Assembly (NCBI GenBank): GCA_001595885.1
Contig: LSSH01000085.1
Span: forward strand, 1 to 41,093
DNA length: 41,093 bases
Reading direction: 5' to 3'
Origin: Candidatus Proteinoplasmatales archaeon SG8-5
GTDB taxonomy: Archaea; Thermoplasmatota; Thermoplasmata; SG8-5
Below the pieces are notes generated by a model that was not told the DNA's origin, did no database searches, and saw nothing but the letters and a program-made list of their open reading frames with translations. A program made the translations under genes and the position numbers. Of this stretch, positions 1,366-16,548 are shown piece after piece (positions within the stretch are counted from its first letter, which is position 1; every line of letters begins with the position of its first letter).

Positions 1366-2457
1366 CTACGCAGTTTTGAAATCATAATAATCGCTGAGGA
1401 GCTCTTCCAGCTCCCTAAGTTTCTCTTCCAGGAGGGTCCTGGTCTTGACCTCCCGCATCATCGATGTGCTCAGGCCGTTCAGGCTGTCGTCGTAGGGCGG
1501 CTTCTCGCCAAGCAGCGAGAACACCATCATGTGCGCGAGGTTGACATTCTCCGTTGTGTTGTACCCTCCCTCGATTGCCACGCTGAGCTTGCCCTTGTTC
1601 AGCTCCTTCAGGCGCCGGACGAACTCGTAATATCCGTTCCCGGTCAGCTGCAGGTTGCACTGGGTATCGGTGTAGTGTGAGTCGAAGCCCACCAGGCACA
1701 TGGTGAAATCGGGCTTGTATTGCTCATGAATGGGTTTCACAAGCTTCTCGAGCACATACAGGTATTCCTCGTCTCCCGAGTTCTCGGGCAATTCCATGTT
1801 AACGTTGTAGCCGCGGCCCTTGCCCCGACCGATCTGGTGGATGAACCCGTCATGCGGATAGAAGTCGTGCGGGTCCCTGTGCATTGATAGGTTGAGGACG
1901 GTCGGGTCCTCGTAGAATATCCTCATCGTGCCGTTGCCTGCGTGGGCGTCGATGTCGACTATCATTATCCTCTCGGCCAGTCCCTCGTCCAGGAGGACGC
2001 TCGATGCGATGGCCGCGTTGTTGAAGATGCAGTAGCCGCCGAAGGAATCCGTGCTGGCATGATGGCCTGGCGGGCGAACCAGTGCAAACGAGGTGTCAGC
2101 CTCTCCGCATGCGACCAGTTGCGAGGCTTTTATGACAGCCCCTACAGCCGATATTGCAGCCTTGAACGTATTCGGGGCAAGATAGGTGCTGTCACCGAGG
2201 AAGCCGCCCCCCCTCTCGCAATAATTCTTAACGAAATTTATGTACCCCTCGTCGTGAACCGTTCTCAGCTGGTCCTCAGTGGCTGGCGGGAAATCGGTCA
2301 CGAGGGTGCAATCTGGCCTTTCGAAGAGCCGGAGACGCCCCTCGAGGAAGTTCATGATCCTGATGAGCCTCGTGGGATTCTCAGGGCTTGACACCTCGGA
2401 CTTATGGACGATGTGGTTGGTGTTGTGTACTATCGCGCATTTTTTGATATCGGACAT
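1366..2457 (-). CDS. Histone deacetylase / acetoin utilisation (AcuC-like) family amidohydrolase
   Basis: Motifs RPPGHHAS, DIDAHAGNGT and GFDSH retain the Zn-binding and catalytic residues of the HDAC fold. Confidence 0.93.
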   Translation of the reverse strand: MSDIKKCAIVHNTNHIVHKSEVSSPENPTRLIRIMNFLEGRLRLFERPDCTLVTDFPPATEDQLRTVHDEGYINFVKNYCERGGGFLGDSTYLAPNTFKAAISAVGAVIKASQLVACGEADTSFALVRPPGHHASTDSFGGYCIFNNAAIASSVLLDEGLAERIMIVDIDAHAGNGTMRIFYEDPTVLNLSMHRDPHDFYPHDGFIHQIGRGKGRGYNVNMELPENSGDEEYLYVLEKLVKPIHEQYKPDFTMCLVGFDSHYTDTQCNLQLTGNGYYEFVRRLKELNKGKLSVAIEGGYNTTENVNLAHMMVFSLLGEKPPYDDSLNGLSTSMMREVKTRTLLEEKLRELEELLSDYYDFKTA

Positions 2458-2466
2458 GTCAACATC

Positions 2467-3069
2467 TCAGTTCTTCAGGTTCTTCTCCAGCGAATGGGTG
2501 CGTATGGCCACCGCCACTTCGCCCCGTGTCTTCTCCAGCACGCCCCTGGCAACGTCCTGCTTCCTCTTGATGGCAACGAGGGAGTTCGGGTAGTGGAAGC
2601 CCATCAGGAACTCGTAGAGGGATTCCATGGTCTCGAGGTATTCTGACGCGTCCTCCACCTCTCCCCTCCTGATATTGTCGAGGGCCTGGCGCCTCACCTC
2701 GCCGATCAGGTCGCCGATCCCTAGCAGATAAGCCTCGGGGGTGACGTTCAGGTCCTTCGGCGACGGGAGCGGCTGCTTCGACAGGATGGCACTGAACACC
2801 CTGGCCTCGGTGTACTCCTGCATCGCTGTTTCCACGAAACCCGCGTGCTTGATATCTGGAAAATCACGGGTGATGCCCACGAGCTTCTGAAGGCCATCGG
2901 TGGCTTCTGCCAGCATGTCGTCCACGTCCTTGCCTTTGTGTAGATCCCGAACCGCACTGCCGCACAACCGCGTTATGCCGCGGGAAGCCTTGAGGGCCAC
3001 CTCCCTGACCTCGTCCTTCTCATCCAGCTCGCTCTCGATCTGAGCGGCTATCTCTCCCAATCGCTCCAT
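2467..3069 (-). CDS. Translin family protein
   Basis: All-helical 200 aa; EYTEARVF...YLLGIGDLIGEVRRQALDNI...YEFLMGFHYPNSLVAIKRKQDVARGVLEKTRGE resembles archaeal/eukaryotic translin. Lies 9 nt from the HDAC gene. Confidence 0.8.
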   Translation of the reverse strand: MERLGEIAAQIESELDEKDEVREVALKASRGITRLCGSAVRDLHKGKDVDDMLAEATDGLQKLVGITRDFPDIKHAGFVETAMQEYTEARVFSAILSKQPLPSPKDLNVTPEAYLLGIGDLIGEVRRQALDNIRRGEVEDASEYLETMESLYEFLMGFHYPNSLVAIKRKQDVARGVLEKTRGEVAVAIRTHSLEKNLKN

Positions 3070-7012: not shown

Positions 7013-7453
7013 ATGAAAATTAAAATTATCAAAAAGATCAACCAACAGGAAAAGAAGAATATCATAGAATCATGGAAGAAGAGGTACGGTTCAATGTCAT
7101 CTCTGCAACACAAGGTCGGCCTGTCAAAATGCTCATCGCCCGAGGATGTTAACACCTATATAACGTGGAAATACCTCGCATCGGGAGCTGAGATGGAGGA
7201 AACGGTAACCTTCGTGAATGCCGACATCTTCGACGTCTTTTCCCCTAAAAGGGGCGAGATACTCGAGTACTTGGCCAACAACGAGGTTTCCTCGATCCGC
7301 GAGTTAGCGACCAAGCTCAGGCGTAATTATAAGAACGTGTACGATGACCTGAAAGCGCTGAATAAGTTCGAGTTGGTCGAGCTCAGGGTGGTGGGCCGAG
7401 CCCTAAAACCCTGTTCTTCCGCCTCTGCCGTAGAGGTGATATTGGAAGAATGA
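7013..7453 (+). CDS. wHTH transcriptional regulator, HVO_A0114/TumA-like
   Basis: FSPKRGEILEYLANNEVSSIRELATKLRRNYKNVYDDLKALNKFELVEL is a clear MarR/ArsR-like wHTH; 10 nt downstream of the preceding small gene. Confidence 0.7.
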   Translation: MKIKIIKKINQQEKKNIIESWKKRYGSMSSLQHKVGLSKCSSPEDVNTYITWKYLASGAEMEETVTFVNADIFDVFSPKRGEILEYLANNEVSSIRELATKLRRNYKNVYDDLKALNKFELVELRVVGRALKPCSSASAVEVILEE

Positions 7454-7517
7454 TTACCTTTTATACCATAATAACTGATGTAACATACTGGCTTCGTAGT
7501 TTACTTTTTATACCATA
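7454..7517 (+). repeat. Two direct copies of TTAC[C/T]TTTTATACCATA (7454-7470 and 7501-7517)
   Basis: 17-nt copies with one mismatch, offset 47 nt, in the intergenic region between the wHTH regulator and the 7602 operon. Confidence 0.85.
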
Positions 7518-7553
7518 TAGTTTTGAAAGGCCCAAAAAGCGCTTAATTCTGCG

Positions 7554-7601
7554 AAATTTATTTAAATAGGTACAGTATTTACTTGTTTAGAAGGAAAGGG
7601 C
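7554..7601 (+). promoter_or_regulatory. Archaeal promoter of the 7602-14820 operon
   Basis: gaaatttatttaaatagg TATA/BRE-like element about 35-45 nt upstream of ATG 7602. Confidence 0.6.
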
Positions 7602-8120
7602 ATGAAAGCGCGTAAGTACGAGAATGTTGAATTTGTTATCAATCACTCAACGGACGAGATGAAGCTGAGCCTTGTTTGGAAGAAGGGCGGCCTTTACCTT
7701 TCACTGTCGGGCCTGTTCCTCACCGACGGGAACACGTGGTACGAGCTTCCGGTGAAGGAATTGGAGAATATCACGGTGGTGAGCGATACGCCGCCGAAGA
7801 TACGCCTCAAGATACCGCAGCTCGACATCATGATATCAGGAGAGAGGGCCGAGAAGCTGCTTGCACTGCGGCACTTCCTTCTGCCGTACATATCCGGTGA
7901 CGAACCGGACAGCGAGCTGAAGGCTCTCCTTCGCTTCTGGGGGATAGGAATAAAGGACGCGCCCATACTCTCAAAGTTGTTGAAAATCGATGAGGAGACT
8001 ATCGAGAAGCTGATTACCGAATCCAAGGACAGGGGTTACATAGACGGTAACGGAGAGATCACACCTGCCGGGAACAGGATGTTCTCGGACGAGGTCAACA
8101 TGGTGGGAGGGGAAGGCTAG
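7602..8120 (+). CDS. CheF-like (PH-like fold?) N-terminal domain + C-terminal wHTH protein
   Basis: N-half beta-rich (LYLSLSGLFLTDGNTWYELPVKELENITVVSDTPPKIRLKI); C-half LLRFWGIGIKDAPILSKLLKIDEETIEKLITESKDRGYIDGNGEITPAGNRMF is wHTH-like, architecture as in archaeal CheF-type proteins. Confidence 0.5.
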   Translation: MKARKYENVEFVINHSTDEMKLSLVWKKGGLYLSLSGLFLTDGNTWYELPVKELENITVVSDTPPKIRLKIPQLDIMISGERAEKLLALRHFLLPYISGDEPDSELKALLRFWGIGIKDAPILSKLLKIDEETIEKLITESKDRGYIDGNGEITPAGNRMFSDEVNMVGGEG

Positions 8121-8121
8121 G

Positions 8122-9012
8122 ATGGAGAAGATAAACGAGTTCGGGAGCTTTGCCGAGACCATCAGCGCCCTGGGTACACTTACGAAGCTCGAATCTGCCG
8201 TCGATGCGGCCGTCAAGAACTCAAAGGTCCCGGCCAGAGAGACGCGGAAGTTCCTCAAGTGCATGACCGTCGAGGAGGCCGGCAACACCGCACTGTTCCA
8301 GTTCATCAGGGAGCTGTTCGTGCGGGTGGGCCTGGGTCAGATGAAGCTGACGAGGAACGACATCTTCAGGTATGACATCGCCATCAATGAAAATCCCGTG
8401 GCCAAGCTGTATCCCAATGTCACCAACAAGAAGACGTGCTACATCACGGCCGAATCAATAATGGAGTTCTTCGCCAAGGACCTGGGGTTGCCCGGGAACT
8501 GCGAGGAGACGGCGTGCGTCAACGCGGGTGATGACCGTTGCGAGTTCTCGATATCTTTACAGCCGCTGGCCGTTTACCAGCTGGCCCTGGATGCCTCGGA
8601 CAAGGAGATAATAATGGCCATCATGGACGGCTCGACCGTTCAGAGCATCGCGACGAAGCTGGACATGAGCGACGAGGAGGCCCAGTACAGGCTGAGCGTG
8701 CTTAAGAGGTATCACATCCTCGATGAAAACTTTGCTATAACCGAGATCGGGGACACCTACCATAAATACGGGGAAGGAATGCCCATTCAGGAGGACGATT
8801 TCCCTCCGCCATGGAAAGATATGGCCGAGATATCGGGAGCCATATCGGCGTCGACCTCGTTCGCCGAGGCCTTCACAGAAACGGCTAAGGAGGAACCGTT
8901 GTGGGACGTGAACGAGGATGACATCGTGAACCTGGCCGACGAGGCTAAGAAAAGCACCAGCTTTGCTGAATTACTTTCAAAACAAATTAAGAACAAGGAA
9001 AAGGACGATTGA
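8122..9012 (+). CDS. V4R-domain sensor protein with wHTH domain
   Basis: LFVRVGLGQMKLTRNDIFRYDIAINENPVAKLYP...ITAESIMEFFAKDLGLPGNCEETACVNAGDDRCEFSIS matches the V4R (4-vinyl reductase) C-terminal Cys motif, followed by wHTH SDKEIIMAIMDGSTVQSIATKLDMSDEEAQYRLSVLKRYHIL. Confidence 0.75.
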   Translation: MEKINEFGSFAETISALGTLTKLESAVDAAVKNSKVPARETRKFLKCMTVEEAGNTALFQFIRELFVRVGLGQMKLTRNDIFRYDIAINENPVAKLYPNVTNKKTCYITAESIMEFFAKDLGLPGNCEETACVNAGDDRCEFSISLQPLAVYQLALDASDKEIIMAIMDGSTVQSIATKLDMSDEEAQYRLSVLKRYHILDENFAITEIGDTYHKYGEGMPIQEDDFPPPWKDMAEISGAISASTSFAEAFTETAKEEPLWDVNEDDIVNLADEAKKSTSFAELLSKQIKNKEKDD

Positions 9013-9023
9013 ACGGAGGAATG

Positions 9024-9902
9024 AGAATGGAAAGAATTAAGACGGGAATATATGGGTTGGATCAACTCATTGAAGGTGGACTGAGAGACAACACGGCCAT
9101 TGTGGTTGTAGGTTCCAGTGGTACAGGAAAGACCACTTTTGGGATGCAGTTCCTAATGCACGGCATTGAGAACGGCGAGCAGGGTCTCTACGTTACCATG
9201 GAGGAATCCCCAGAACAACTCATGAAAGAAGCGGAGATGCTTGGATGGGATATGAAGAAGCACTATGAAAAATCCCTCTTCTTCATCCACCTCAAGGGGA
9301 AGAATTTCAAGAAGATGATCGACGAGCAGATCCCGCAACTGGTCAAGGCCAGGAGCGATTACGACATCAAGACACGAGTGGTGATTGACCCAATGACACC
9401 TGTCATCTGGGCGACTGAAGATAAACTTCATCAGAGAGAGCTCATCGGTAAGCTGTTCTACACTCTGAAGGAACTTGGTGTTGTCATGGCCACCGTGGAG
9501 GAGCATTCCAAGCCGGGCGAGATAGTCGGCGAGGATGTACTGCTTCCCGTCTACCTGGCCGACGGCGTCATTGACCTCGAGTACTACCCGATCGGCGGGG
9601 CTTTCAACCGTACCCTCAAGATCATCAAGATGAGGGGGACGCACCACGGCGAGGGAGTGTACCCTTACATATTTGCCAGGGGCATCGGCATAGTGATAAG
9701 GACCTCCCAGGTCGAGGCGGTAAAGGTCGAGGAGGGAAAGAACTTCGATTCCATCTTCGACGAGGCGATAAAAACTGCCGAGTTCATCAAGGCACCCGAT
9801 TACATAATCACCAAACTGAAGAACATGAAGGAAGGCTGGACATACAACTATTCCCCAGAAGAGGCCTTACAGGTGATATTCGACTCCTATGGTTTGAAGT
9901 AA
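9024..9902 (+). CDS. Single-domain KaiC/RadA-like ATPase
   Basis: RIKTGIYGLDQLIEGGLRDNTAIVVVGSSGTGKTTFGMQFL (Walker A GSSGTGKT), YVTMEESPEQL, TRVVIDPMTPVIW (Walker B), LKIIKMRGTHH. Confidence 0.92.
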   Translation, partial: RMERIKTGIYGLDQLIEGGLRDNTAIVVVGSSGTGKTTFGMQFLMHGIENGEQGLYVTMEESPEQLMKEAEMLGWDMKKHYEKSLFFIHLKGKNFKKMIDEQIPQLVKARSDYDIKTRVVIDPMTPVIWATEDKLHQRELIGKLFYTLKELGVVMATVEEHSKPGEIVGEDVLLPVYLADGVIDLEYYPIGGAFNRTLKIIKMRGTHHGEGVYPYIFARGIGIVIRTSQVEAVKVEEGKNFDSIFDEAIKTAEFIKAPDYIITKLKNMKEGWTYNYSPEEALQVIFDSYGLK

Positions 9903-9917
9903 GGTCGGAGGACTTGG

Positions 9918-10709
9918 ATGGCAAGCGACAAGAAGATAGACAAGCGAATGGAGGCCGAGACGGTCGTACAGTTAAAGCACATGCTGGAGATGGAGCTGAA
10001 GAGGATCCAGGAGACCAACAAGGTCGACATCATCATGTTCGTCGGTATTGACGGGCGCATATTCAGTTCTCTGATACCGCAGCTACTGGACGGCACGCAG
10101 TTCCGACTTCTGAACCTTGTCAAAGGTAACCTTCCTTCCATCTGCAGCCAACTGACGGCCGAGAACCTGGAGATCAGCATCCATAAGTACAAGGACGGCA
10201 CCGTGGTCATCTCCGGTGTCGGGGACAACTGCTTCCTGGTCTCGATATTCACAAAGGAAGTGGATATCAAGGAGCTTCAACCGGTGGTGACCGGTATTAC
10301 CAAGGGCAGCGCCGTGCTGAATCACCTCTTCGAGCTCAAGCCCATAACCCCCGAGGCAATGCAGGGGTATGACGATGAAGTAATCGAGGAGCTGTCGAAG
10401 CTTACGAGGCTGCTCTTCGTGGAGAAGTTTGACGAGACAAGGGAGTACAAGCGAAACATGGAGCTGCTCAAGTTCATGAAGAACAAGATAGGCAGCGTGG
10501 TGGGCATCGGTGCGGTTGACGAGATAGTCACGGTCACGATGAACGAGCTCGGTACTTCGGCCCCTTACATGAAGGAAAAGGACTGGATCAAGTTCACAGA
10601 GATGATAATCGACACCCATATCAAGAAGGCCAGCGGTGACATTGTCGCCGATGAGTGCAGGAAGACATGGATACCAGAGATAGAACGCAAACTCAAATCC
10701 TTCGTTTGA
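9918..10709 (+). CDS. Roadblock/LC7-like domain protein with unknown C-terminal helical domain
   Basis: VDIIMFVGIDGRIFSSLIPQLLDGTQFRLLNLVKGNLPSICSQL...LEISIHKYKDGTVVISGVGDNCFLVSIF resembles the archaeal Roadblock/LC7 fold. Confidence 0.65.
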   Translation: MASDKKIDKRMEAETVVQLKHMLEMELKRIQETNKVDIIMFVGIDGRIFSSLIPQLLDGTQFRLLNLVKGNLPSICSQLTAENLEISIHKYKDGTVVISGVGDNCFLVSIFTKEVDIKELQPVVTGITKGSAVLNHLFELKPITPEAMQGYDDEVIEELSKLTRLLFVEKFDETREYKRNMELLKFMKNKIGSVVGIGAVDEIVTVTMNELGTSAPYMKEKDWIKFTEMIIDTHIKKASGDIVADECRKTWIPEIERKLKSFV

Positions 10710-10718
10710 TAAACAGGG

Positions 10719-13559
10719 ATGGGAAGAATGGCAAAGGCGAAGAAGACGACGAGGAAGAGCACGACTTCTAAAACTAGTAAGCCAAAGGCCTCGACAAAGA
10801 AGAAGTCGCTTGCCAAGAAGACCCCCAAAAAGACTGAAAAGAAGACCGATAAGAAGCCGGAGCTCATTTGCCAGTTTTGCGAAAAACCCATGAAGGACGA
10901 GAAGACGAAGAAGGTCCACGAAAGTAATTGTAAGAAGAAGAAGGAAGAGAAGGAGAAGAAGCCGCCCAAGAAGGATCTGGAGGAGGCCGTTGCGAAGTTA
11001 AAGGACGAGTTCGAGGACCAGAAGAGAGTATTCAGCGACCGCTTCACCGAGCGGGAGGACAGGCTCCACGAGGAGATACGCGAGCTCAAGGAAGTGCTCA
11101 GGCTGGAGATAGAGCACCGCCACAAGGAGCGGGAGCGGCGGAAGCGGGAGGAGTCGGAGACCGCGGCGGCGGAGGCCGTGCTGGAAGAGGTCGCGGAGGC
11201 GATTGATAAGGAGATGGAGACCTCGGAGGAGACCGCCCGGGAACCGGAGCCATCACCGATACCGGTTGCCCAACCACCAACCCAGATACCGGCCGAAGAC
11301 GCTCCAAGGGCCATTGACATGATTCCGACGCCTGTGCCCGAGATTCCGCCGCCGAAATCCCCCGAGCAGATTGCACCTGGAATCGGCGCAGCTTCGCCTG
11401 AAGAGGTTACGGTTGAAACGGCGGAGATCCCCCCCTCGGAATCGAAGGAGGTCGCAGCCGAGGAACCCGCTGTTCAGCCAGAGGCGGAATCCGAGCCCAA
11501 GATCGACATGGACAGGGAGGCCATCGTCACGCTTATCCGTGAGGAATTGGGGAAAAAGGACGAAGAGAAGGCCGGTCCCGTTATCGAACTGGACGGGATC
11601 ACCGGACAGATCGATGACCTTTCAACGGAGGTCAAGACGCTCAAGAGAGACCTGGAGACAACTTCCTCAAATCTCAGGAAAACGCTGGACAAGATTGAGT
11701 ATGACGCTGAATTCAAGAGAATCGAGCGCGAGCTCAACAAGTTCTCGGAGAAGATAGCCGAGATTATGGACGAGATCGGGTTCGGCGAGCAACTGAACGT
11801 TTCAAAGATACCGCCGACCATCCTGGAGATAGTCTATCAGGCCACGCTGGACGACCTGACTCTCGAGCTGGCCCGGGCGATGGGCACCCAGGATGCGGAA
11901 AAGGTCTCAAGGGCTGCTTTGGAGGAGGTAAGGTTGAAGACGAGCGGCAGCGAGCTCTTCAAGTTCGACGGGCGCAAGATCGTTACCGATAATCTTGCCC
12001 ATTCCATAGAGGCCAACCTCATCTCGGCAAAGCAGATACAGACCACCTACGACGAATTGCTCAGCCGGCTGCTCGAGAATCTCCCCCATCACAAGGCAAA
12101 GAACTTCAGGGCAATGATCAAGGTGAAGAGCCAGGAGTTCGCAGTTGACAGGGCGACAATGCTGACGAAGCACACGGACCGACTTGAGAACGTGCTCGAG
12201 ACCTCCAGCCAGATGCTGGCGGCCTTGTCAGCGCAGCTGAACTCGCTTCAGCTGGAGCTCAGGGAGGAACTTGACGACATCAAGAACAACATGATATTGA
12301 CCAAGGCCGAGGCCTCTGATATCGACCTCATCAAAATCAAGATGAACGAGAGGGACGAGAGGGAGGCAAAGCTCATGAAAGACCTCTCATTGTTGAGGGC
12401 CGAGGTGGAGATGGGAAAGAAGCTGGCAAAGAAGGATGAGAAACCGAAGATGGAATTGGGGGCGGAAGTGAAACCAACCGAGGATAAGCCCGCCAAGAAG
12501 GAGGAAGAGGTTAAGGAGGAGCCGCCGAAGGATGAGGCCGAAACATCCACGCTTGAGGCCGATGTCTTAAAGGCCATCTCCGACGGAGCTGGTTCAAAGA
12601 CGGCCATCAAGAAGAGCACCGGTCTGAAGGAGAAGGAGATTCTTGAGGCTGTTTCAAAACTCGTAAAGGACAAGAGAATCATCGAGAAGAAAGCTGGAAA
12701 GAGGATATCCTACATGACGCCGGATAAAGAACTTGAGGATAAGATCAAGAAGAAGGAGAAACCAAAGGAAGAGAAAAAACCTGAGGTCCCGGAAGTTATT
12801 GAAGGTGAGGATATCATTGTTGTGCCGGAGGGACCTCCGGAGGAAGAGCCCAAAACAAAGAAAGGGCCCAAAAAGAAGGCCGGGGACAAAATGGCAATGG
12901 AAGAGCCTGAGAAGAAGCCCAAGAAGGCTCCGAAGAAAGAGCCTGAAAAGAAAGAAGAGAAGACGCCGCCCAAGAAGGCTCCGAAGAAAGAACCTAAAAA
13001 GAAGGAAGAGAAGAAACCTGAAAAGAAAGCTGAAGATGAGAAGAAGGCACCTTCTGAGAAGGCGAAGGAAAAGATTGAAGAGAAAGCGCCCAAAAAGGAG
13101 GCTGAAGAAGAACCTAAACCCGAGAAAGAGAAGCCAGAGCCTGAAAAGCCGGTCGAGGAAATGGAGCCCGAGGTGTCAAAGGAGCCAGAAGAGCCCGTGG
13201 AACCGAAGGAACCAGATCCGGAAAAGGCCCCTGATAAGAAACCAAAGAAGGAGCCCGAAAAGGAACCTGAAGAGCCCGAGATATCCATACCGACTGAGTC
13301 CAAGGGTCTCGACGAATTAAGCGAGGAAGAGAGAATGGTCCTGGAGGCCATCACGGAGGATGGTCTTACCAGGTCGGGGATCCAATCCAAGGTCGGCAAG
13401 GACCTGAACTACACCACCGTGCTCAGGGCGCTGCGGGTGCTCATCGATTCGGGCTACGTGGGTATCGTTACGAAGGGCAGGCTCACCCTTTATCAGAAAA
13501 TCAGTGTCAAAGAAATGGATAAACCTGAAAAGGAGAAGAACAAAAAGGAGGTGAAATGA
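10719..13559 (+). CDS. 946-aa C2HC zinc finger / coiled-coil / Lys-Glu-Pro-rich protein with two C-terminal-half wHTH domains
   Basis: LICQFCEKPMKDEKTKKVHESNC (C-x2-C-x12-H-x3-C), long coiled coil, wHTH-1 DVLKAISDGAGSKTAIKKSTGLKEKEILEAVSKLVKDKRIIEKK, low-complexity KKAPKKEPEKKEEK tract, wHTH-2 EERMVLEAITEDGLTRSGIQSKVGKDLNYTTVLRALRVLIDSGYVGIV. Confidence 0.85.
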   Translation: MGRMAKAKKTTRKSTTSKTSKPKASTKKKSLAKKTPKKTEKKTDKKPELICQFCEKPMKDEKTKKVHESNCKKKKEEKEKKPPKKDLEEAVAKLKDEFEDQKRVFSDRFTEREDRLHEEIRELKEVLRLEIEHRHKERERRKREESETAAAEAVLEEVAEAIDKEMETSEETAREPEPSPIPVAQPPTQIPAEDAPRAIDMIPTPVPEIPPPKSPEQIAPGIGAASPEEVTVETAEIPPSESKEVAAEEPAVQPEAESEPKIDMDREAIVTLIREELGKKDEEKAGPVIELDGITGQIDDLSTEVKTLKRDLETTSSNLRKTLDKIEYDAEFKRIERELNKFSEKIAEIMDEIGFGEQLNVSKIPPTILEIVYQATLDDLTLELARAMGTQDAEKVSRAALEEVRLKTSGSELFKFDGRKIVTDNLAHSIEANLISAKQIQTTYDELLSRLLENLPHHKAKNFRAMIKVKSQEFAVDRATMLTKHTDRLENVLETSSQMLAALSAQLNSLQLELREELDDIKNNMILTKAEASDIDLIKIKMNERDEREAKLMKDLSLLRAEVEMGKKLAKKDEKPKMELGAEVKPTEDKPAKKEEEVKEEPPKDEAETSTLEADVLKAISDGAGSKTAIKKSTGLKEKEILEAVSKLVKDKRIIEKKAGKRISYMTPDKELEDKIKKKEKPKEEKKPEVPEVIEGEDIIVVPEGPPEEEPKTKKGPKKKAGDKMAMEEPEKKPKKAPKKEPEKKEEKTPPKKAPKKEPKKKEEKKPEKKAEDEKKAPSEKAKEKIEEKAPKKEAEEEPKPEKEKPEPEKPVEEMEPEVSKEPEEPVEPKEPDPEKAPDKKPKKEPEKEPEEPEISIPTESKGLDELSEEERMVLEAITEDGLTRSGIQSKVGKDLNYTTVLRALRVLIDSGYVGIVTKGRLTLYQKISVKEMDKPEKEKNKKEVK
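12918..13013 (+). repeat. Near-identical 45-nt tandem duplication in the low-complexity tract (12918-12962 and 12969-13013; period 51)
   Basis: cccaagaaggctccgaagaaaga[g/a]cct[g/a]aaaagaa[a/g]gaagagaag repeated; encodes PKKAPKKEP(E/K)KKEEK. Confidence 0.85.
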
Positions 13560-13560
13560 A

Positions 13561-14193
13561 ATGCTCGATGTAGCATTGGTCTCGCTTATCCAAGACATGA
13601 GCGAGAAGGCTGGTGTCGAGGGCACCATCCAATACTGGGCTAGAGTGGGTGAAAGCCTGGCCAAGAGAATGGGCAAGGAAGCGTATATGGGTTGGCCGTC
13701 CTTCAACGTCGCGTTGAGGGAGGGTCGAACAGCGTTTTCCATAGAGGGAAGCGTCACTGCCTTGACCGACCTGGCCATAACAGACGTGGACGGCGACGTT
13801 GTCGGTTACATCTACGCGTTGGAGACCTGTGTCTTCAACCCGACTATCGTGCGGATACGATACAGCGTCGGCGAGTTGCCGAGGGCAGATAGTGCCGTCG
13901 CAGAGGAATACAACAACAGCGTCAGGGACACGGCGGTCTGCAACTTCTGCGTGATACACCAGAGGTTCAGGGAGGAGGTGGCAAAGAACATCTCCATCGC
14001 CGACCAGGCGTTGGACTGCGTGCAGCTGGCCAACAGGGGCTTCACAGGTGACACGAAGATCGCTGAGGATGCCCTTAAGAAGATAGGCATCAACCCCGAG
14101 TACGTCCGCAGTCTGTTGAGGAACTACGCATGTGTCTACGCCATCCTGATGAGGGGCGCAAGACTCAAGGGCGAGGAAGAGGAGGCAGAGTAG
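13561..14193 (+). CDS. Uncharacterised protein, paralogue A of a tandem pair
   Basis: 210 aa; shares AEEYNNSV...CNFCVIHQRFREEVAKNI with the next gene. Confidence 0.85.
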   Translation: MLDVALVSLIQDMSEKAGVEGTIQYWARVGESLAKRMGKEAYMGWPSFNVALREGRTAFSIEGSVTALTDLAITDVDGDVVGYIYALETCVFNPTIVRIRYSVGELPRADSAVAEEYNNSVRDTAVCNFCVIHQRFREEVAKNISIADQALDCVQLANRGFTGDTKIAEDALKKIGINPEYVRSLLRNYACVYAILMRGARLKGEEEEAE

Positions 14194-14205
14194 GAGGTGA
14201 GATGA

Positions 14206-14820
14206 ATGGGAGAAAGGAGAAAAGGTTTGATAGCAGACAACCCGTTCGTTGACGTTGCCGCCTGCCTGTTCCTCGAGGACATCGCAGACAAGCAAGGAGC
14301 CAGCGGGATGAACAACTATCTTGTCAGCCTTGCGACGTCCCTCGCCAAGAGCATGCCCGAAGAGGAGTACGCCACATGGGACGACTTCCTCGACTCGTTG
14401 GTAAAGGGCGAGTCCATCATATCCGCGTTCGAGGATGTGATTACCGTCACGCCGCACTGCGCGGTCACGACCGAGTGCCCGTTCACAAAGGGCTGGCTCG
14501 AATACACCAAGAGGATCGGAACGTTCTCGAAGATACATACGGACGTGGCCGAGTATTATAACTCCGTATACAAGCCCGGCACGATCAACTCAATGTGTAT
14601 CATCCACCAGACCTTCAGGAACGCGGCGGCCGAGAGGATCAAGATCGCAGGCAAGATCCTGAAGATATCCCAGGTCGCGGCTGTCTGGGAGGACGGGACC
14701 AGGAAGATAGCGCCGGACGAGTGGGTGCCCATATTGCTGGAGAAGGCTCAGATAACCGGGACAGACCTGAACATGATATTGAGGAACAACGCAGACGTCT
14801 GGGTGATGTACACAGAGTGA
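14206..14820 (+). CDS. Uncharacterised protein, paralogue B of a tandem pair
   Basis: 204 aa; AEYYNSV...NSMCIIHQTFRNAAAERI aligns with paralogue A; similar length and helical N- and C-termini. Confidence 0.85.
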   Translation: MGERRKGLIADNPFVDVAACLFLEDIADKQGASGMNNYLVSLATSLAKSMPEEEYATWDDFLDSLVKGESIISAFEDVITVTPHCAVTTECPFTKGWLEYTKRIGTFSKIHTDVAEYYNSVYKPGTINSMCIIHQTFRNAAAERIKIAGKILKISQVAAVWEDGTRKIAPDEWVPILLEKAQITGTDLNMILRNNADVWVMYTE

Positions 14821-14985: not shown

Positions 14986-15543
14986 GTGATCGAGCTGGCA
15001 AGGAGCGGTGACCTCATATTCTACAAGTTTGAGGAACCTTCTGAGATAAACAAGTTCCATATACTCGGTTCCGAAGACGGGAGGTTCTCCGGTGGGGGTT
15101 TCGAGTTCTTCCGAGGTCTGGGCATCATCGGATACGACAAGACCTTCAAGATATGGCTCAGGAAGTTCCCGAGACCCATCTTCATCGTGGCTGCCAAGGG
15201 CAATCACATTTACTCTTGGGTGTTCATCGAGGAATGGTTAGAGGAAGCTTCGGTCGACGGGATGGCCGTTTGGGTTCTCAGGGCGATAGAGACGCTTCCG
15301 TCGGAACGGAGGAAGAAGATAGGGTTCAGGCTCGTTGTCCTAGGGGCAAAGCAGAGCACCGGTTACCTTATCACCAAACCGTTGACGCCGGAGGCCGAGA
15401 GGTTCTTCAGGATGTGCGGGTTCATGTCCCCGAAAGAGTTCAAGAAACCGCCCATCGACTTCACGCGGCATCCTGGCCACTTGATACTTCCGCCGTACAA
15501 AAAGGAGCAGCTGATCGAGCAGGTTGATGATTATTTTAAATAA
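14986..15543 (+). CDS. GNAT-like (possibly degenerate) protein of unknown function
   Basis: AVWVLRAIETLPSERRKKIGFRLVVLGAKQSTGYLITKPLTPEAERFFRMCGFM has GNAT-like topology but lacks an obvious Q/RxxGxG/A motif. GTG start; own upstream TATA-like ccttatcatatgg near 14881. Confidence 0.6.
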   Translation: MIELARSGDLIFYKFEEPSEINKFHILGSEDGRFSGGGFEFFRGLGIIGYDKTFKIWLRKFPRPIFIVAAKGNHIYSWVFIEEWLEEASVDGMAVWVLRAIETLPSERRKKIGFRLVVLGAKQSTGYLITKPLTPEAERFFRMCGFMSPKEFKKPPIDFTRHPGHLILPPYKKEQLIEQVDDYFK

Positions 15544-15580: not shown

Positions 15581-16480
15581 TCAAAAGAGGGAGAGTATCT
15601 CATTGCCGAACTGCTCGGCCTTGGTCTCTCCGATGCCGTAGATGGACTGCAGGTCCTCTACCGATGCTGGGTCCTTGCTTGCTAGTTCCCTCAGTGTCCG
15701 GTTCTGAAGCACGAAATACTTGGGCTTGCCCATCTCCTCCGACTTCTTGTCCCTCCACTCCTGCAGCAGGCCCTTGCGCCTCTCGACCTCCTCGATCTCC
15801 AGGTTGGACTCGACCTCCACTGGGAGGTCGTCACCGCCGGCCAGGACGTCCAGGCCCTTGCTCGTGATGACGAGCACCGGGAACTCGGATTCCTCCGCGT
15901 AGGCGATGTAGTTCTCCTCGATGAGCCAGTCTATGAGCGCGAGCACCTCCTTCATGGATGCGCCCTTGGCTACGCCGTACTGGCCCAGCTTGCCGATGTT
16001 TATGGTCAAGACCTTCTTCGACACGGAGCCCGTTAACACGCGGGCTATTGTGGTGCGACCGTAGGTCCCGCCCATGTCGAACACGCATTTCAACACAGAG
16101 AGCGCTAGGCTTGAGGTCTCGGTCTCGGCGGGAACGCCCTGCAGGGCGATGACCTCCGTGAAGGCCATTGTCAGCTGCTGTCCGTTCTCGGTAGTGGCGA
16201 ACACCTCGATGTCCGCGTCCACGACGTTGCGGGCGAGGCTGATCTCCGCCCCGCTGTCTATGTAGCATATCGGGCGGACGCCAGCGCACAGGTTGTGCAC
16301 GACAACCGCGCCGTCGGGCCTGGCGGTCATCAGGACCTTTCCGTCGAATTCCTTCGTAACGGCCTCGTTGACGTACGTGCCCCGGCACTGGCCGACCACG
16401 ATGATGGTCTGGAGGTTGGTCATTTCGTTCGTTTGGCTTTGCATATCGTTTGTTTCGTTTTGGTTCATTTTTTCAACCAT
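15581..16480 (-). CDS. NucS/EndoMS N-terminal-like domain + RQC-like + HRDC-like protein lacking helicase and nuclease domains
   Basis: N-part IIVVGQCRGTYVNEAVTKEFDGKVLMTARPDGAVVVHNLCAGVRPICYI (NucS N-terminal-like); LSVLKCVFDMGGTYGRTTIARVLTGSVSKKVLTINIGKLGQYGVAKGASMKEVLALIDWLIEENYIA (RQC); WRDKKSEEMGKPKYFVLQNRTLRELASKDPASVEDLQSIYGIGETKAEQFGNEILSLF (HRDC). Confidence 0.75.
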   Translation of the reverse strand: MVEKMNQNETNDMQSQTNEMTNLQTIIVVGQCRGTYVNEAVTKEFDGKVLMTARPDGAVVVHNLCAGVRPICYIDSGAEISLARNVVDADIEVFATTENGQQLTMAFTEVIALQGVPAETETSSLALSVLKCVFDMGGTYGRTTIARVLTGSVSKKVLTINIGKLGQYGVAKGASMKEVLALIDWLIEENYIAYAEESEFPVLVITSKGLDVLAGGDDLPVEVESNLEIEEVERRKGLLQEWRDKKSEEMGKPKYFVLQNRTLRELASKDPASVEDLQSIYGIGETKAEQFGNEILSLF

Positions 16481-16483
16481 CCT

Positions 16484-16548
16484 GCCTTCTTCGGAAGGCA
16501 ACGGCTTCGGGCATTCGGGTGTATGCCCCGAATGCCTCACTACGAAGC
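16484..16548 (-). promoter_or_regulatory. Structured 5' leader (two stem-loops) of the NucS-N/RQC/HRDC gene
   Basis: Minus-strand RNA: GCUUCG-UAGUGA-GGCAUUCGGG-GCAUACA-CCCGAAUGCC-CGAAGC (16504-16548), then GCCUUC-CGAA-GAAGGC (16484-16499), then AUG at 16480. Confidence 0.6.

Follow-up and report, generated by a model that had tools for sequence, protein, structure and literature searches.

A cassette of seven tightly packed genes (genes 1–7) and an eighth downstream, carried on the 41,093-nt contig LSSH01000085.1 of Candidatus Proteinoplasmatales archaeon SG8-5 (the whole of which is hereafter the window), is read here, with a probability of roughly 55%, as a KaiC-hub signaling operon of Thermoplasmatota, in which a core of Roadblock- and V4R-type proteins is joined by an autoregulatory arm combining a V4R domain with a winged helix-turn-helix (wHTH) and sensing redox state or a ligand. 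The system looks real and not previously described. Makarova, Galperin and Koonin (mBio 2017, cited in PMC5847659) are said to have proposed that KaiC-like ATPases serve as signal-transduction hubs in archaea, and in those proposals, as here, the operon of a KaiC-family ATPase also encodes wHTH and sensor-type domains. Such proposals need defined, testable partner sets, and this cassette offers a compact one, namely four core proteins retained across carriers (gene 6 being unusually conserved) plus a predicted sensor-regulator and its DNA target. It also seems to unite, in a non-Asgard operon, Roadblock and V4R/Bet3-like folds, which are more familiar from Asgard archaea and from regulators of eukaryotic membrane traffic. 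A preliminary description of the window had not recognized the full gene set as a described system, and we likewise found no such operon in the literature, the 2017 KaiC-hub gene lists lying outside that comparison.

The preliminary description had named neighborhood conservation beyond one genus as a test; the order 1-2-KaiC-Roadblock-5-6-7-GNAT recurs, far beyond one genus, in no fewer than 15 families of uncultivated Thermoplasmatota archaea within the class. Using tblastn with each window protein, the same order was seen in nearly all fetched neighborhoods of relatives, with 27 carriers among 61 relatives and KaiC orthologues 65–94% identical. Scanning 84,980 species of bacteria and archaea with gene 6 gave 46 public loci, and these show the full order (1-2-3-4-5-6-7-GNAT) as far as each contig permits, with gene 1 missing in some lineages. 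These loci are nearly all titled metagenome-assembled genomes (MAGs) and none is titled an isolate genome; the genomes are mostly MAGs, many of them incomplete. All the loci are named as Thermoplasmatota-type or unplaced archaea, bar one cyanobacterial MAG (Leptolyngbyaceae, L070), which holds the archaeal cassette probably through contamination. In a class-wide sample, 63 of 300 genomes, from 15 families as counted by unnamed family labels, had genes 6 and 7, almost always in two copies. An exception is one lineage (G013; L069 and L035), where the GNAT gene comes straight after gene 6, the locus lacks gene 7, and the two gene-6-like copies lie on separate contigs.

Ordered orthologues in at least 15 families, together with near-saturated synonymous sites, indicate that the seven open reading frames (ORFs) are genuine genes; genes 6 and 7 are under very strong purifying selection, with a nonsynonymous divergence (pN) of 0.015–0.035 in gene 6. 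All seven lie on the forward strand at the coordinates first given for them, behind a B recognition element (BRE)/TATA promoter. The set was one gene short, as the conserved unit runs on past 14820 into a GNAT-family gene (gene D, Table 1), and the promoter description, while right about the TATA element, had overlooked a tandem element beside it.

KaiC, Roadblock, and genes 6 and 7 stand alone, as a minimal core, in a clade of two families. In a midpoint-rooted core-gene tree, this clade nests beside loci with fuller operons, which suggests that the minimal core arose by loss from a fuller operon, although the rooting is not proven. A search of seven minimal-core genomes found no gene 5 in any part of them. 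Even unlinked core genes occur in the same genome: in G364, which belongs to another class and has 7% contamination, one contig carries genes 6, 7, and GNAT and a different contig carries Roadblock, a point that we count for the signaling reading. Roadblock was not found in six genomes lacking genes 6 and 7 (G003, G024, G065, G014, G037, and G045).

The KaiC ATPase call for gene 3 stands on a strong Pfam match (PF06745, 169.6 bits against a cut-off of 26.6) and on an invariant Walker A motif and double glutamate; GSSGTGK, E65E66, and D127 are unchanged in 17 orthologues, bar one Ser/Ala change in the P-loop. Its start is likelier ATG 9021 or 9027 than TTG 9009. It scores below the NCBIfam cut-offs of the named KaiC subfamilies, with 130 of 249 bits for KaiC_arch_3 and 54 of 215 bits for ArlH. 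Gene 4 has no Pfam match, and the Roadblock call made for it is supported by structure. Its AlphaFold model (predicted local distance difference test, pLDDT, of 82) has the Roadblock topology of helix, two strands, helix, three strands, and helix, and Foldseek ranks MglB and Asgard Roadblock proteins closest to it (E 4e-6 to 1e-5; target template modeling (TM) score 0.68–0.76). Gene 4 has this fold in common with those proteins but carries an extra C-terminal helical domain, and its operon partner is a KaiC ATPase whereas theirs is a Ras-like GTPase.

Genes 6 and 7, first noted as two Cys-His paralogues, are indeed that, and have no Pfam match. The gene 6 model points to a remote resemblance to the V4R/Bet3/BcsD superfamily, to which (or to BcsD) all its best Foldseek matches belong: BcsD (6e-4), the phenol-sensing domain of PoxR (1.5e-3), and TRAPPC3 (3.6e-3). 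Although gene 6 looks remotely alike in fold to Bet3/TRAPPC3 of TRAPP, the PoxR/MopR phenol sensors, and BcsD, it shares no detectable sequence similarity with them and has an invariant CxxCxxH motif with further cysteines (C90, C127, C130, H133, and C191 in 21 sequences).

The V4R domain called in gene 2 exceeds its Pfam gathering score (PF02830, 34.3 bits against 31), and its C-x25-C-x7-C triad was present in 32 of 32 sequences examined. The protein matches the C-terminal part of MsvR (E 6e-6); it falls under the NCBIfam MsvR equivalog cut-off (26.1 against 220 bits), though the three-cysteine spacing is identical. The MsvR of methanogens, a redox-sensitive DNA-binding regulator with cysteines C206, C232, and C240, recognizes boxes that precede its own gene (PMC3729527). 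Both proteins pair a wHTH with a V4R domain, and both have conserved boxes upstream of their own gene or operon. Gene 2, however, has the inverted domain order (V4R first), a tail with SFAE motifs, and a place in a KaiC operon, and its operon has direct WTTAC-N7-ACCATA repeats where MsvR has the inverted repeat TTCGTAN4TACGAA. The S-F-A-E motifs, one near the N terminus and two in the tail, look docking-like; they occur in all 32 gene 2 sequences against nine of about 3,070 unassigned ORFs, and a search of nine genomes turned up few other cases of the double motif. In CP070767 (L099/L115 and L160), the V4R gene and SFAE tail appear split between two places, which may be an assembly or masking artefact, since both sit beside runs of N.

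Upstream of gene 1, the tandem WTTAC-N7-ACCATA architecture recurs in 27 loci with a period of 46–48 bp. In the window, a CTGG lies between the repeats, 12 bp before the right copy. In relatives with a recognizable promoter, the distance from the right repeat to BRE/TATA is 22–23 or 34–35 bp, a difference of about one helical turn. Across 20 genomes, tandem copies with 0–1 mismatch were found only at this operon, and no wider regulon emerged, matches with 2–3 mismatches being about as frequent as reversed-pattern controls. The element is absent from minimal-core loci, which also lack gene 2. A search for an RNA element in the promoter region gave no Rfam match.

In the arrangement that we infer from these data, from signal and complex to the binder of the element and the output, the KaiC ATPase, the Roadblock scaffold, and the V4R/Bet3-fold products of genes 6 and 7 would form one predicted complex. 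A ligand or metal may bind to the latter two, whose state would reach the KaiC ring by way of the Roadblock protein. Gene 2 would be the transcriptional arm, its three-cysteine V4R domain sensing redox state or a ligand and its SFAE tail docking on the complex. Its wHTH is proposed to bind the tandem element just upstream of BRE/TATA, and the operon would thereby control itself. Gene 5 would act as a coiled-coil, DNA-binding scaffold, and the GNAT protein and an HDAC-family neighbor may set or read an acetylation state. Several observations weigh against this picture. The minimal-core clade does without genes 1, 2, 5, and GNAT, so none of these is needed by the core; the structural match for genes 6 and 7 is distant (query TM about 0.4, root-mean-square deviation 6–8); profile comparison gave no sequence link between these genes and gene 2; and the tandem element also adjoins the regulator gene C, whose product is a possible binder instead.

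The operon might go further and constitute a KaiC-powered analogue of TRAPP/Ragulator, with a Roadblock and Bet3-fold platform on the KaiC ring and a redox-sensing V4R-wHTH protein coupled to the operon's own tandem operator, an idea that we put forward tentatively and consider unlikely. A rival account, to our minds rather improbable, would have Roadblock dimers flanked by Bet3-fold subunits regulate a nucleotide switch (KaiC, or a small GTPase encoded elsewhere) and serve membranes or polarity, not transcription. The invariant core of Roadblock and Bet3/V4R-like folds with KaiC fits such a platform, as do the TRAPP/Ragulator-like dimers of Asgard Roadblock and TRAPPC3 proteins (PMC10933270) and the proposal that V4R is the ancestor of Bet3 (PMC2253512). 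However, the cassette has no small GTPase, and genes 1, 2, and 5 make its complete version rich in DNA-binding modules.

An acetylation switch, in which the GNAT protein and the HDAC-family neighbor acetylate and deacetylate the complex or the lysine-rich gene 5 product and so make chromatin or transcription respond to acetyl-CoA or energy state, seems to us improbable. It draws on the near-constant company of the GNAT gene (Table 1) and on its family support, with Pfam matches in 17 of 20 gene D orthologues (best 7.6e-7; the window copy alone, E 0.012), and on the HDAC-family gene, which in 15 relatives lies directly upstream of gene B on the same strand and is near the cassette in the window. 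In the latter, the HDAC-family and translin genes, which recur beside the cassette across families, are inverted, about 4.5–5 kb upstream of gene 1. Against the switch, the GNAT protein seems to have a degenerate acetyl-CoA motif (R-x-K-K-I-G-type, compared to R-x-x-G-x-G/A), which leaves its activity uncertain, and both genes are absent from minimal-core neighborhoods.

A DNA-maintenance or nucleoid complex, with a RecA-fold ATPase and a coiled-coil wHTH protein acting on DNA, would account for the make-up of gene 5 and for the RecA fold that KaiC shares; the translin gene is also a recurrent neighbor, found close to KaiC at many loci, among them all minimal-core loci that have upstream sequence. 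The absence of gene 5 from the minimal-core genomes tested, the V4R and Roadblock folds, which point to sensing, and the restriction of the convergent RQC/HRDC gene downstream to close relatives make such a complex quite improbable. The giant zinc-finger, coiled-coil, wHTH protein first described is borne out for its coiled coil and wHTH; the zinc finger, like the second wHTH (about 865–925), is present in only part of the family. A nearly universal wHTH (about 610–665) precedes a low-complexity linker, and the window copy has weak Pfam wHTH matches only. The conserved helical core (alignment A9) gave no consistent Pfam and no PDB match. In one family (L099–L104), the C-terminal wHTH is a separate overlapping ORF. 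Several wHTH modules had been expected in the cassette, and genes 1, 2, and 5 carry them, Pfam placing gene 1 in a wHTH family.

Control of chemotaxis or the archaellum by a CheF-like adaptor and an ArlH-like KaiC is highly improbable. Gene 1, earlier called CheF-like, is collinear with the second half of CheF by hhalign (PH-like domain plus wHTH), but weakly (P 0.003, probability 11%), and none of its 19 orthologues matched CheF-arch (PF04283), and the call finds little support; where CheF has two PH-like domains gene 1 has possibly one, and most carriers lack chemotaxis genes. CheF-arch was absent from all 61 relatives, KaiC is far under the ArlH cut-off, and the 27 carriers have no archaellin and seldom CheW (3 of 27), which makes motility control unlikely; Pfam, hhalign, and genome co-occurrence all fail to support the link. 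A PDB sequence search with genes 1, 4, 5, and 6 gave nothing significant bar one C-terminal match for gene 1. A defense system was likewise rejected, as PADLOC gave only weak wHTH, ATPase, or chance matches.

Table 1. Features of the cassette and its surroundings in the window.
Feature	Coordinates	Strand	Evidence or remark
HDAC-family deacetylase gene	1366..2457	-	PF00850 E 2.7e-83; recurrent cassette neighbor
Translin-family gene	2467..3069	-	PF01997 E 1.6e-10; recurrent cassette neighbor
Gene B, 120 aa	6640..7002	+	conserved neighbor on far side of promoter element; 24/46 public loci, co-directional or divergent; no Pfam match
Gene C, HVO_A0114-type winged-helix regulator	7013..7453	+	PF25212 E 2e-19; conserved neighbor, 24/46 loci
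Tandem operator-like element, two WTTAC-N7-ACCATA repeats (7453-7470, 7500-7517)	7453..7517	+	47 bp apart
BRE/TATA promoter element CGAAATTTATTTAAATA	about 7552-7568	+	5' of gene 1, 34 bp downstream of right repeat
Seven co-directional ORFs	7602-14820	+	spacing -4 to +15 bp
Gene 1, 172 aa, PH/GRAM-like N-terminal domain + wHTH	7602..8120	+	PF24409 in 17/19 orthologues, weak GRAM in 3
Gene 2, 296 aa, V4R domain (C106-x25-C132-x7-C140) + wHTH + tail with repeated SFAE motifs	8122..9012	+	PF02830 E 2.5e-8
Gene 3, single-domain KaiC-family ATPase + conserved C-terminal extension	9009..9902	+	PF06745 E 9e-50
Gene 4, 263 aa, Roadblock/LC7 domain (about 15-138) + C-terminal helical domain (153-261)	9918..10709	+	AlphaFold/Foldseek
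Gene 5, 946 aa, zinc finger, coiled coil, helical core (about 340-480), two wHTH	10719..13559	+	conservation profile
Gene 6 (CH1), 210 aa, remote V4R/Bet3/BcsD-like fold	13561..14193	+	AlphaFold pLDDT 89, Foldseek
Gene 7 (CH2), 204 aa, gene 6 paralogue, ~30% identical	14206..14820	+	alignment A4; almost every carrier has it in tandem with gene 6
Gene D, 185 aa, GNAT-family acetyltransferase-like, last of conserved unit	14986..15543	+	adjoins cassette in 45/46 loci

The convergent gene with RQC and HRDC domains lies at 15581–16540 on the reverse strand. At another locus (L109, 11848–18351), a very large membrane-protein ORF resembling STT3-type oligosaccharyltransferases is convergent to the minimal core, and similar ORFs lie near other loci.

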